Positions 5,266-51,026 of a stretch of 51,026 bases of DNA are shown here, one piece after another (the stretch's first letter is position 1; each line of letters begins with the position of its first letter). Source of the DNA: an uncultured Gammaproteobacteria bacterium (lineage in GTDB: Bacteria; Pseudomonadota; Gammaproteobacteria; CAMYKB01). A program made the translations under genes and the position numbers. Under the pieces are notes generated by a model. It was not told the origin of the DNA. It saw only the letters and a list, made by a program, of their open reading frames with translations, and did not search any database. Location: contig CAMYKB010000030.1 of NCBI GenBank assembly GCA_947258875.1, forward strand, positions 1-51,026. Reading direction: 5' to 3'.

Positions 5266-6666
5266 ATGCCGGAGTATTCAACACAAGCCCAACATCACGC
5301 CCCCAGTGCCGATCGTCTCAAGGTACCGCCACACTCGCTCGAAGCTGAGCAGTCGGTGCTCGGTGGTTTGATGCTGGATAACAACGCCTGGGATCAAATT
5401 GCAGATCGCGTCGTTGAGGATGACTTTTATCTTTACGATCACCGCATCATTTTTCGCGCCATAGGAGAACTGGCAGAGAAAAACCAGCCGTTCGATGTCG
5501 TTACATTGTCTGATATGCTGGAACGCGGCAAACAGTTAAATGACACAGGCAGCGTGCTCGCTTATCTGGGTACGCTTGCGAAAGACACGCCGAGCGCGGC
5601 CAATATCCGTGCCTATGCCGATATCGTGCGCGAGAAATCCATCTTGAGGCAGCTGATCTCCACCGGTACCGACATCGTGGATAGCGCTTTCAACTCAGAA
5701 GGCCGTGACAGCAAGGAATTACTCGATACTGCCGAGCAAAAGGTTTTCCGCATCGCTGATCAGGGGGCTCACGGCAAGCAGGGCTTCAAGAGTATCAGGG
5801 CGTTGCTAAAGAACACCGTCGAACATATTGATATGTTGTTCGAGCAGGATGATCCCATTACCGGTATTCCGACGGGCTACAACGAATTTGACGAAAAGAC
5901 CTCCGGGTTACAACGCGGTGACCTGATTATCGTGGCGGGACGCCCTTCTATGGGCAAGACCAGCTTCGCCATGAACATTGCCGAATATGCGGCACTCAAG
6001 AAAAATGCAGCAGTGGCGATTTTCAGTATGGAAATGCCGGGCGAGCAACTTTCGATGCGTATGCTGTCCTCCATGGGGCGTATCGACCAGCACCGCCTGC
6101 GTACCGGGCGGCTTGCCGAAGAAGATTGGCCGCGTTTGAGCAGTGCGGTTTCCATGCTTTCAGAAGTGCCACTATTTGTTGACGACAGCGCGGCCCTGTC
6201 ACCCACTGAATTACGTGCTCGTGCGCGACGCCTCAAACGCGAACATGATTTGCAGTTGATCGTGGTTGATTATTTGCAACTCATGTCGGTACATGGTACG
6301 TCGGAAAACCGTGCTACCGAAATCTCCGAAATCTCGCGTTCACTCAAGGCACTGGCCAAAGAGTTATCCGTGCCGGTGGTTGCCTTGTCGCAGCTCAATC
6401 GCAGCCTTGAGCAACGCACCGACAAACGTCCCGTAATGTCGGACTTGCGTGAATCGGGCGCCATCGAGCAGGACGCCGACCTCATCGTGTTTATCTACCG
6501 CGATGAGGTCTATAACGAAGACAGCCCCGATAAAGGTACGGCCGAGATTATCGTCGCCAAGCAACGTAATGGTCCTATCTTCAAGACACGGGTTACCTTC
6601 CTTGGGCAATATACGCGCTTCGAAAATTTCGTTCCCGAGATCTATTCAAACGAGAACTTTTCGTGA
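5266..6666 (+). CDS. dnaB: Replicative DNA helicase DnaB
   Basis: This hexameric 5'-3' helicase unwinds DNA at the replication fork and recruits DnaG primase. The N-terminal primase-binding domain (about 20-120, PPHSLEAEQSVLGGLMLDN) is followed by a linker and the RecA-like motor. Walker A is GRPSMGKTS near residue 226, Walker B is LIVVDYLQLM, and DLRESGAIEQDADL with an arginine-finger region follows. At 466 residues it has normal length and no intein. Its stop overlaps the alr start (GTGA), a tight translational coupling. Confidence 0.96.
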   Translation: MPEYSTQAQHHAPSADRLKVPPHSLEAEQSVLGGLMLDNNAWDQIADRVVEDDFYLYDHRIIFRAIGELAEKNQPFDVVTLSDMLERGKQLNDTGSVLAYLGTLAKDTPSAANIRAYADIVREKSILRQLISTGTDIVDSAFNSEGRDSKELLDTAEQKVFRIADQGAHGKQGFKSIRALLKNTVEHIDMLFEQDDPITGIPTGYNEFDEKTSGLQRGDLIIVAGRPSMGKTSFAMNIAEYAALKKNAAVAIFSMEMPGEQLSMRMLSSMGRIDQHRLRTGRLAEEDWPRLSSAVSMLSEVPLFVDDSAALSPTELRARARRLKREHDLQLIVVDYLQLMSVHGTSENRATEISEISRSLKALAKELSVPVVALSQLNRSLEQRTDKRPVMSDLRESGAIEQDADLIVFIYRDEVYNEDSPDKGTAEIIVAKQRNGPIFKTRVTFLGQYTRFENFVPEIYSNENFS

Positions 6667-49566: not shown

Positions 49567-49654
49567 CAGGATTAAGGGTTGCATTGTAGCTACAGGGAGA
49601 ATATAGGACTTATAATAACTATAAAAAACAAATATTTAGGAGATAATCAGGATG
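49567..49654 (+). promoter_or_regulatory. csrA leader with GGA motifs (possible CsrA autoregulation)
   Basis: The leader carries CAGGA (49567), ACAGGGA (49592), TAGGA (49604), TTAGGAG (49636, the ribosome-binding site) and CAGGATG (49648), which overlaps the start codon. Multiple GGA sites covering the ribosome-binding site and start are the pattern by which CsrA represses its own mRNA in E. coli. Confidence 0.5.
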
Positions 49655-49840
49655 TTAATTTTAACACGTCGAGTTGGAGAAACATTAATGATCGGTGATG
49701 AAGTCACCGTGACGGTTTTAGGGGTAAAAGGTAATCAGGTGCGTATTGGTGTAAATGCCCCCAAAGAAGTCGCTGTGCACCGTGAAGAAATCTACGAACG
49801 CATCAAGCGTGAAAAAGAGCAGGCCGCAAGTAGTAGCTGA
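49652..49840 (+). CDS. csrA: Carbon storage regulator CsrA
   Basis: This is an RNA-binding dimer that controls translation and stability of mRNAs by binding GGA motifs in hairpin loops. At 62 residues it has the full [18 protein letters not shown] start, the [20 protein letters not shown] core and a short tail. AGGAG precedes the ATG. It is followed by the tRNA-Ser and tRNA-Arg genes, as in E. coli. Confidence 0.97.
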
Positions 49841-49917: not shown

Positions 49918-50029
49918 GGAGAGATGGCCGAGTGGCTGACAAAATCGTCGGGAACGATTTTGAACCGCCGGTAGGCGGGCCTGTAAGGCGAAGGGCAGGA
50001 AGCCCGGAGTAACGCGCTCCGTGGAGCGC
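49918..50029 (+). repeat. tRNA-Ser 5' fragment joined to hairpin element A
   Basis: Positions 49918-49939 are identical to the first 22 bases of tRNA-Ser(GCT). They break off in the D-loop and continue into an array of hairpins: AAAATCGT/ACGATTTT around CGGGA (49940-49962); CCGCC/GGCGG around GGTA; a small GCC/GGC; GGGC/GCCC around AGGAA (49993-50005); and GCGCTC/GAGCGC (50014-50029). The intact tRNA-Ser starts 52 bases later. Confidence 0.75.
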
Positions 50030-50081
50030 CGTTCTAAATGGGAAGATTAAAAGTAGCGGAAATACCGTTACCAATGAATGT

Positions 50082-50172
50082 GGAGAGATGGCCGAGTGGC
50101 TGAAGGCGCTCCCCTGCTAAGGGAGTATACGTTAATAGCGTATCGAGGGTTCGAATCCCTCTCTCTCCGCCA
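50082..50172 (+). tRNA. tRNA-Ser (GCT anticodon)
   Basis: This is a class II tRNA. The acceptor GGAGAGA pairs with TCTCTCC, discriminator G, CCA encoded. The anticodon loop CTGCTAA between CTCCC and GGGAG gives GCT (AGC/AGU serine codons). The long variable arm is TATACGTTAATAGCGTAT-like. The order csrA to tRNA-Ser is conserved in Gammaproteobacteria. Confidence 0.96.
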
Positions 50173-50211
50173 TTTAATAAGGGGGCGGGGTTTTCGCCCC
50201 CTTATTAAATG
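50171..50211 (+). terminator. Long hairpin after tRNA-Ser
   Basis: A perfect 17-base stem (CATTTAATAAGGGGGCG and its complement) surrounds GGGTTTT. It begins in the CCA end of the tRNA. The stem ends in A/T pairs without a following T-run, but its strength and position fit a terminator or a 3'-end processing signal. Confidence 0.55.
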
Positions 50212-50222
50212 GCTAAAGTGGC

Positions 50223-50351
50223 TCGAACCCTCGCTATAGATAACTGGGTTCGACCAATCCGCCGGGAGCGGATTGGAACAGCGGCGGTTTTTGCCGCTGG
50301 CCCCAAAGGGGCGAGGGGCAGGGAAGCGCCGAGTAATCTCTTTCTCCGCCA
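50223..50351 (+). repeat. Hairpin element B joined to a tRNA-Ser 3' fragment
   Basis: It begins with an inverted copy of the tRNA-Ser T-arm (TCGAACCCTCG, 50223-50233), then a direct GGGTTCGA (50246-50253). Hairpins follow: CCAATCCGC/GCGGATTGG around CGGGA (50254-50276), CAGCGGC/GCCGCTG (50279-50299), GCCCC/GGGGC around AAA, and a stem around AGGGAA (50315-50330). It ends with a sequence close to the last bases of tRNA-Ser, including CCGCCA. Confidence 0.75.
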
Positions 50352-50540
50352 TATCCAAAGAAAAAGGGGCTTCTGGCCTACTGCTGTCCCACTAAATGAG
50401 GAACGGCAGCCCAAGGCTGATAGTGTCACCATCACGCCGCTTAAGAGGGGTTGAGAAGAAGGTGGTCATAGGCGGATTCATGCCCTGTGCTTGGTATCAC
50501 CTGTCAGTAGACACAATCTGCTCATAGTGGCTATCTTTGC

Positions 50541-50569
50541 TTGCAGCCTGTGTGAGAATTAAGGATAAT
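50541..50569 (+). promoter_or_regulatory. Sigma70-type promoter for the tRNA-Arg region
   Basis: The -35 TTGCAG and -10 GATAAT are separated by exactly 17 bases, followed by a GC-rich stretch (CCGCGC) typical of stable-RNA promoters. It lies 20 bases upstream of the partial tRNA-Arg copy, so the fragment and the intact tRNA should be on one transcript. I see no gene in 50352-50540. Confidence 0.6.
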
Positions 50570-50588
50570 TCCGCGCTCTTTGATTGTT

Positions 50589-50676
50589 GCGCCCGTAGCT
50601 CAGCTGGGCGAGGTGGATAAGAATTTGATCCAGTGAATCAAATTCCCAGTGAGCGCCAGGGCAGGGATGACCTGGC
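50589..50676 (+). repeat. tRNA-Arg 5' fragment joined to hairpin element D
   Basis: Positions 50589-50607 match the first 19 bases of tRNA-Arg(ACG). They are followed by GAATTTGAT/ATCAAATTC around CCAGTGA (50621-50645) and GCCAGG/CCTGGC around GCAGGGATGA (50655-50676). The latter loop contains CAGGGATG, close to the known CsrA-binding consensus. The intact tRNA-Arg starts 60 bases downstream. Confidence 0.7.
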
Positions 50677-50736
50677 AGGTGTTCAGTAAAACTATTGATG
50701 TATCGCCATGGATGGCTAGAAAAGTTTAAAGTTTTT

Positions 50737-50813
50737 GCGCCCGTAGCTCAGCTGGATAGAGTACCTGGCTACGAACCAGGGGGTCGGAGGTTCGAATCCT
50801 TCCGGGCGCGCCA
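50737..50813 (+). tRNA. tRNA-Arg (ACG anticodon)
   Basis: The acceptor GCGCCCG pairs with CGGGCGC, discriminator G, CCA encoded. The anticodon loop CTACGAA between CCTGG and CCAGG gives ACG (CGU/CGC/CGA arginine codons after A-to-I editing). The T-arm is GGAGGTTCGAATCC. It is the second tRNA after csrA, matching the usual Ser-Arg order. Confidence 0.97.
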
Positions 50814-50816
50814 TAT

Positions 50817-50856
50817 AAACAAAAGGCCTACCCTTGTGGTAGGCCTTTTGTTTATT
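50817..50856 (+). terminator. Intrinsic terminator after tRNA-Arg
   Basis: A perfect 16-base stem (AAACAAAAGGCCTACC and its complement) around CTTGT is followed by T-rich sequence (TTTTGTTTATTT). It begins 4 bases after the tRNA CCA. Confidence 0.75.
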
Positions 50857-50874
50857 TAGTGCACTGAATTATGC

Positions 50875-51009
50875 TCGAACCTCCGAACATAATTGAGAAT
50901 CTGGTTCGACAAAATTGCCTGGAGCGGTTTTGAACAGCGGCGTTATTTGCCGCTGGCCCCGGAGGGGCGGAGCACAGGGAAGTGCGGAGTAATCCTTCCG
51001 GGCGCGCCA
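50875..51009 (+). repeat. Hairpin element C joined to a tRNA-Arg 3' fragment
   Basis: It begins with an inverted copy of the tRNA-Arg T-arm (TCGAACCTCCG, 50875-50885) and a direct GGTTCGA (50903-50909). Hairpins follow: CAAAATTGC/GCGGTTTTG around CTGGA (50910-50932), CAGCGGC/GCCGCTG, GCCCC/GGGGC around GGA, and GCAC/GTGC around AGGGAA (50972-50985). It ends with the last 19 bases of tRNA-Arg, including CCA (50991-51009). Its layout matches element B. Confidence 0.75.
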
Positions 51010-51026
51010 TCAGTAAAAATCATAAC

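Follow-up and report, generated by a model that had tools for sequence, protein, structure and literature searches.

Near the right-hand end of the window (the whole stretch of DNA analysed, 51,026 nt, which is one contig, C30, of a gammaproteobacterial genome of 3.01 Mb), intact genes for tRNA-Ser(GCU) and tRNA-Arg(ACG) are each bracketed by pieces of themselves, a 5′ fragment on the upstream side and a 3′ fragment on the downstream side (Table 1). The fragments are fused to hairpin-bearing elements designated A to D. Elements A, C, and D have one homologous core of 72–82 nt in common; C shares 79% identity with D over 103 nt, and terminator-like hairpins precede these two. An earlier note on this DNA had described the bracketing, had taken all four elements as related and without an encoded protein, had placed the breaks in D-loops or T-loops, and had read element C as if inserted into the T-loop. 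Its coordinates proved right, the lack of an encoded protein and insertion into T-loops and D-loops are supported, and cores C and D lie exactly between GGTTCGA and ATCC/ATCT. The relatedness holds for A, C, and D, which a single covariance model (R1) recognizes at 84, 75, and 71 bits, but is not detectable for B, which scores only 3.6 bits. Element D also recurs at the end of another contig (G000:C18:37084), and the window contig itself ends at 51026; this recurrence is an assembly overlap and no additional copy, the assembly being broken within core D, and the two contigs are probably neighbors in the genome.

Table 1. Genes, tRNA fragments, and elements at the two tRNA loci of the window
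Feature	Position	Strand	Evidence and remarks
csrA	49652-49840	+	directly 5′ of element A; PF02599 match G000:C30:49652-49807, E = 2e-25
tRNA-Ser(GCU) 5′ fragment	49918-49939	+	22 nt, 100% identical to 50082-50103; break in D-loop after GGCTGA
Core A (C...GTA)	49940-50011	+	P3 hairpin with loop CGGGA, P4, P5, P6 hairpin with CAGGAAG; R1 84.2 bits (49938-50013)
Rest of D-arm/anticodon-stem strand ACGCGCTCC, then its complement GGAGCGC	50012-50032	+	sequence; folds as hairpin
Intact tRNA-Ser(GCU)	50082-50172	+	ARAGORN
tRNA-Ser T-arm, antisense copy	50223-50236	+	inverted repeat I4 with 50141-50154
T-arm 5′ part GGGTTCGA, insertion target of core C	50246-50253	+	sequence
Core C	50254-50335	+	P3 loop CGGGA, P6 C[AGGGAA]G; R1 75.4 bits (50252-50337); weak AaHKsRNA22 match
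tRNA-Ser 3′ fragment, T-loop to 3′ end	50336-50351	+	16 nt, slightly diverged; repeat D6
tRNA-Arg(ACG) 5′ fragment, break in D-loop	50589-50607	+	repeat D3
Element B, hairpins including CAGGGATG and GCCATGGATGGC	50608-50716	+	R1 only 3.6 bits, no core by the model; fold z = -2.5
Intact tRNA-Arg(ACG)	50737-50813	+	ARAGORN
tRNA-Arg T-arm, antisense copy	50875-50886	+	inverted repeat I5
T-arm 5′ part GGTTCGA, insertion target of core D	50903-50909	+	sequence
Core D	50910-50991	+	P3 loop CTGGA, P6 CAC[AGGGAA]GTG; R1 71.4 bits (50908-50993)
tRNA-Arg 3′ fragment, exact	50992-51009	+	repeat D5

The core, about 72–82 nt long, is organized as four hairpins (C-P3-GAAC-P4-P5-P6-..GUA). This structure is strongly supported by covariation: 98.3% of cells in P3–P6 are paired, double changes occur in 15 of the 20 pairs, and 0/500 shuffles reach this. 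P3 is partly constrained by the search pattern that gathered some of the copies, whereas P6 is unconstrained by it. Among 615 inner pairs of P6 stems, G-U pairs (12) are rarer than mismatches (29), so the pairing constraint may extend to DNA and not concern RNA alone.

Copies elsewhere show that a repeated process, and not chance, produced this arrangement, as the earlier note had argued from two tRNA genes. Searches with R1, built from 45 cores without E. coli sequences, and with BLAST recovered many copies in the source genome and its relatives, also at other tRNA genes, clearly contrary to the absence of more copies that the note had named as a refutation. R1 finds 16 distinct core copies in the source genome (counting the contig-end copy as D) and BLAST gives 10 matches; the same plan appears there at the tRNAs Ser(UGA), Ser(CGA), Gln(UUG), and Gln(CUG). 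At Ser(UGA) the upstream tRNA copy is broken twice, in the D-loop and in the T-loop (L003), and at Ser(CGA) a full-length upstream tRNA copy has its T-loop interrupted. Several non-tRNA copies in this genome sit inside another dispersed repeat. This second dispersed repeat (GAGGTACTTTCTTTGTC..GACAAAGAAAGTACCCAAAG), present at L170, L176, L180, L182, and other loci, is host to several cores and is surrounded by more ANGGAN hairpins.

Within that repeat, an empty site and filled sites in the same genome define the inserted unit. The empty junction reads GACAAAGA/AAGTACCC (L180), and filled ones read GACAAAGA, C...GTA, AAGCACCC (L176) or similar, from which it follows that the unit is C...GTA and the target GA|A. 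Insertion of C...GUA at GA|A is precise, with no evident target duplication. Adjacent-tRNA fragments flank 109 of 263 distinct copies (90 T-arm, 13 D-arm, 5 anticodon arm, and 1 other). Within tRNA genes the trinucleotide is found chiefly in three places, the T-loop, the D-loop, and the anticodon loop. Every D-arm copy is upstream of an intact tRNA, whereas 69/80 sense T-arm copies are downstream of one. T-loops that offer GAA on both strands, by virtue of the palindrome TTCGAA, carry 73 sense and 0 antisense copies at about 50 loci. Counts do not represent independent events because copies are often tandem. All 10 antisense T-arm copies belong to tRNAs for Met, Phe, and Asn, in which the sense T-loop has no GAA. 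Seven sense T-arm cases occur without GAA, so the rule is strong and not absolute.

Roughly half of the copies lack a flank from a matching tRNA, and insertion sites include positions beside tmRNA, group II introns, an hsdS gene, and other repeats. As happens with tRNA genes, one tmRNA gene (L272:1501-2016) has a 3′ fragment of itself, joined to a core, on its downstream side. Cores also lie within or beside domain I of group II introns (RF02001), at the same place in different introns (L067:6828-7066 and 5540-5778; L042, L103, L080). In Pseudomonas/Stutzerimonas (L076:849-929, L114, L155) the core follows the ATGA overlap of two genes that we take from their sequence to be hsdM and hsdS; it forms an in-frame N-terminal extension of HsdS, and its P6 loop ATGGAT offers a second start codon.

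Spare tRNA copies would explain why intact genes are bracketed. A hit in the sole copy of an essential tRNA would not persist, and surviving insertions should therefore be those with a spare copy; insertions into a spare, duplicated part of a tRNA would leave the intact gene with core-joined tRNA fragments on its flanks. Bare insertion does not account for the antisense copy of the tRNA 3′ half that stands ahead of many downstream copies. In relatives this arm is complementary to the copy's own tRNA 3′ fragment, the pairing of an RtT-type outer stem, over a mean of 7.2 nt, compared with 5.2 when arms are dealt among copies; for window copy D the figure is only 3 nt. The motif GAGAA occurs in 38/103 left flanks, against 2 in a control window. 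A possible source of the antisense arm is template switching by fold-back, at the terminator hairpin and at the palindrome TTCGAA. In left flanks of downstream T-arm copies from unrelated tRNAs and genomes (e.g., L006, L011, L167), the antisense T-arm reads TGAGAA in place of TTCGAA.

Until now RtT has stood as an orphan RNA repeat, noted next to a single tRNA operon of E. coli and next to some tRNA genes of Pasteurellaceae. Judged by sequence homology, our core is the unrecognized core of Rfam RtT (RF00391, the E. coli tyrT repeats) and of AaHKsRNA22 (RF02902, Aggregatibacter sRNA 22), and the module is distantly related to the RtT repeats of E. coli, which have received little study. R1 finds all four tyrT repeats (E from 1e-4 to 9e-3), and the tyrT-tyrV region of E. 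coli K-12 follows the same plan, with GGGGAAGGATGAGAA..AAGGTTCGA, then the core, then ATCCTTCCCCCACCACCA. This recovery and shared plan make the window elements members by homology, though they score below the Rfam thresholds: an Rfam scan of the window gave no RtT match at E ≤ 1, and AaHKsRNA22 reached 32.3 and 26.1 bits there against a cut-off of 39.8. Elsewhere the RtT model gives 34.1 bits at L006 and, among relatives, 40.6 (L011) and 45.6 bits (L158), of which only the last passes its cut-off of 45, and AaHKsRNA22, which matches core C over its full length, is above cut-off at L226. The earlier note had recognized no named family and had held a match to a named repeat or RNA family to be decisive against it; in substance there are two, since RtT and AaHKsRNA22 have the same core, and its statement survives only in that both models stay under their cut-offs on the window copies.

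RtT repeats and our copies agree in the T-loop junction (GGTTCGA, core, ATCC, and the same tRNA 3′ end), in tandem copies 3′ of the tRNA, and in the antisense arm GGATGAGAA seen in many relatives. C and D, like the E. coli tyrV repeats, neighbor a tRNA gene and carry the 3′ end of the tRNA. They differ in that the Rfam model covers a subset and that D-loop, anticodon-loop, upstream, intron, and non-tRNA copies fall outside the RtT description. A direct DNA comparison of E. coli genomes with the consensus core gave no match beyond weak 32-nt pieces, and the connection to E. coli had to be made through RtT and the covariance model. Cores are present in 35/75 gammaproteobacterial genomes, source genome included. 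Phylum-wide, 94/398 genomes have one, and 53 of these 94 belong to at least one class other than Gammaproteobacteria.

The loops of the core point to a possible function. GGA is present in the P6 region of 235/263 copies, in the C-ANGGA form in 222/263; the P6 motif is CAGGA(U/A/C)G or C[ANGGAN]G, and P3 carries CNGGA with N free. For comparison, a review gives CAGGA(U/A/C)G for the CsrB repeat, RUACARGGAUGU for the SELEX consensus, and ANGGAN for the RsmE loop (PMC7652899). GGA is found in both P3 and P6 in 96/120 copies, at distances of 26–63 nt (median 44), a spacing that would be within reach of one CsrA dimer, which bridges sites 10–63 nt apart (PMC7652899). From these motifs, transcribed cores probably bind CsrA/RsmA, and would then serve as titrating or cis-acting sites. 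Outside cores, too, GGA tops the 64 triplets in such hairpins; this holds in both locus sets when the stem is 5 or 6, and in the pattern loci when it is 7. Genomes with a core carry csrA far more often (87/94) than genomes without one (133/304; Fisher 9e-19). Phylogeny confounds this association, and two genomes, G013 (100% complete) and G139 (99%), contain a core and no csrA match. The core loci give weak, below-cut-off matches to RsmY (29.3 versus 57 bits) and TwoAYGGAY (34.5 versus 43). Cores resemble the CsrB/RsmY/TwoAYGGAY clan of CsrA-binding RNAs (CL00106) in their GGA apical-loop hairpins with CAGGAnG/ANGGAN, and differ in having two sites only, in being dispersed and inserted, and in their weak family scores. 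Two further observations count against such a role: C and D lie beyond terminator-like hairpins, and the E. coli RtT repeats have no GGA in P3/P6-type loops, so CsrA binding cannot be the function of every member. Full-text searches of open-licence literature returned no paper linking RtT to CsrA, and in the literature searched we found no prior description of the insertion rule or of the probable CsrA link.

On balance we favor, with some confidence, a dispersed nonautonomous module that inserts at GA|A, that has RtT and AaHKsRNA22 among its members, that would move through single-stranded DNA, and whose transcribed copies are predicted to bind CsrA/RsmA. IS200/IS605 elements and REP/RAYT systems have hairpins near both ends, a fixed 5′ target, no evident target duplication, and a one-strand preference. 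The core is like them in each respect. Its perfect subterminal hairpins and strong sense bias, together with a fixed 5′ target and no evident duplication, fit single-stranded DNA insertion of the IS200/IS605 type; transposition into a single-stranded non-template or lagging strand would yield the sense bias. Unlike them, it has no GTAG-type REP signature and no linked transposase was found. Y1 transposases co-occur weakly with the core (25/35 core-bearing versus 18/40 other genomes, P = 0.03), too weakly to name the moving enzyme, and are missing from several core-rich, near-complete genomes, including G061 and G062. A stronger version, in which a transposable RNA module spreads predicted CsrA-binding hairpins across proteobacterial genomes through insertion in single-stranded loops of tRNA-like sequence and so brings tRNA operons, the csrA neighborhood, introns, and genes like hsdS under the control of CsrA, we regard as tentative and less likely than not. 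Another reading, on the whole unlikely, is that the same insertion module is purely selfish, REP/MITE-like DNA whose GGA loops are recognized by the moving enzyme and are unrelated to CsrA. Dispersal in other repeats and introns, the scarcity of G-U below that of mismatches in P6 stems, as a DNA hairpin would allow, and the presence of cores in a few genomes without csrA are what this reading would lead one to expect, but it leaves aside a loop pattern (constant A and GGA, variable N, and an invariant closing C-G) that equals the CsrA/RsmE rule, the enrichment of GGA hairpins outside cores too, and the likeness of the hairpins to RsmY/TwoAYGGAY.

Two further explanations carry less weight. Bosl and Kersten (as cited in PMC4986893) described RtT as released from tRNA operon transcripts, with effects on the stringent response, and RtT-type units could be retained as processed RNAs for amino-acid stress that spread by local duplication within tRNA operons and not by insertion. 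That account in PMC4986893, the downstream position of most sense T-arm copies, the antisense-arm pairing above the dealt value, and the frequency of GAGAA in left flanks all suit this proposal; it is nonetheless improbable given the antisense insertions, the absence of a matching tRNA flank at about half of the copies, and the cores in group II introns, hsdS, and other repeats. The fragments might also be attL/attR scars of lost phages or islands whose integrases used tRNA genes as attachment sites. Such integration typically leaves 3′ tRNA fragments downstream of intact tRNA genes, as seen here, but D-loop and anticodon-loop sites and upstream 5′ fragments are atypical of it, the same 75-nt core is present at every site, and non-tRNA sites follow the GA|A rule as well; we reject this very improbable reading on site and core identity.

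Dispersed, GA|A-directed insertion places RtT in a widespread insertion family, and the target rule and strand preference constrain any proposed mechanism. Predicted CsrA binding offers a testable function for many family members. If correct, ready-made sites could rewire CsrA regulons once inserted, and many unexplained tRNA fragments in proteobacterial genomes would share one cause.

Several further observations concern the surroundings of individual cores. Insertion after ATGA and ORF-less copies prompted us to consider a HEARO/IscB guide RNA, which we rejected as no Rfam scan gave a HEARO match. Among the phage records listed, matches were to tRNA genes only. A viral contig (L156, IMGVR_UViG_2513237355_000005), probably of a prophage, has the same tRNA-Ser-flanking core as Alishewanella (L088). 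Enterobacterial repeats of about 400 nt (L046, L072, L075, L125, L132) contain a core, and some of them have GTTC..GTGAACGGAAC ends. In several Serratia species (e.g., L060:340-415) a core lies in the spacer ahead of a gene that, from its sequence, is presumably flgK.
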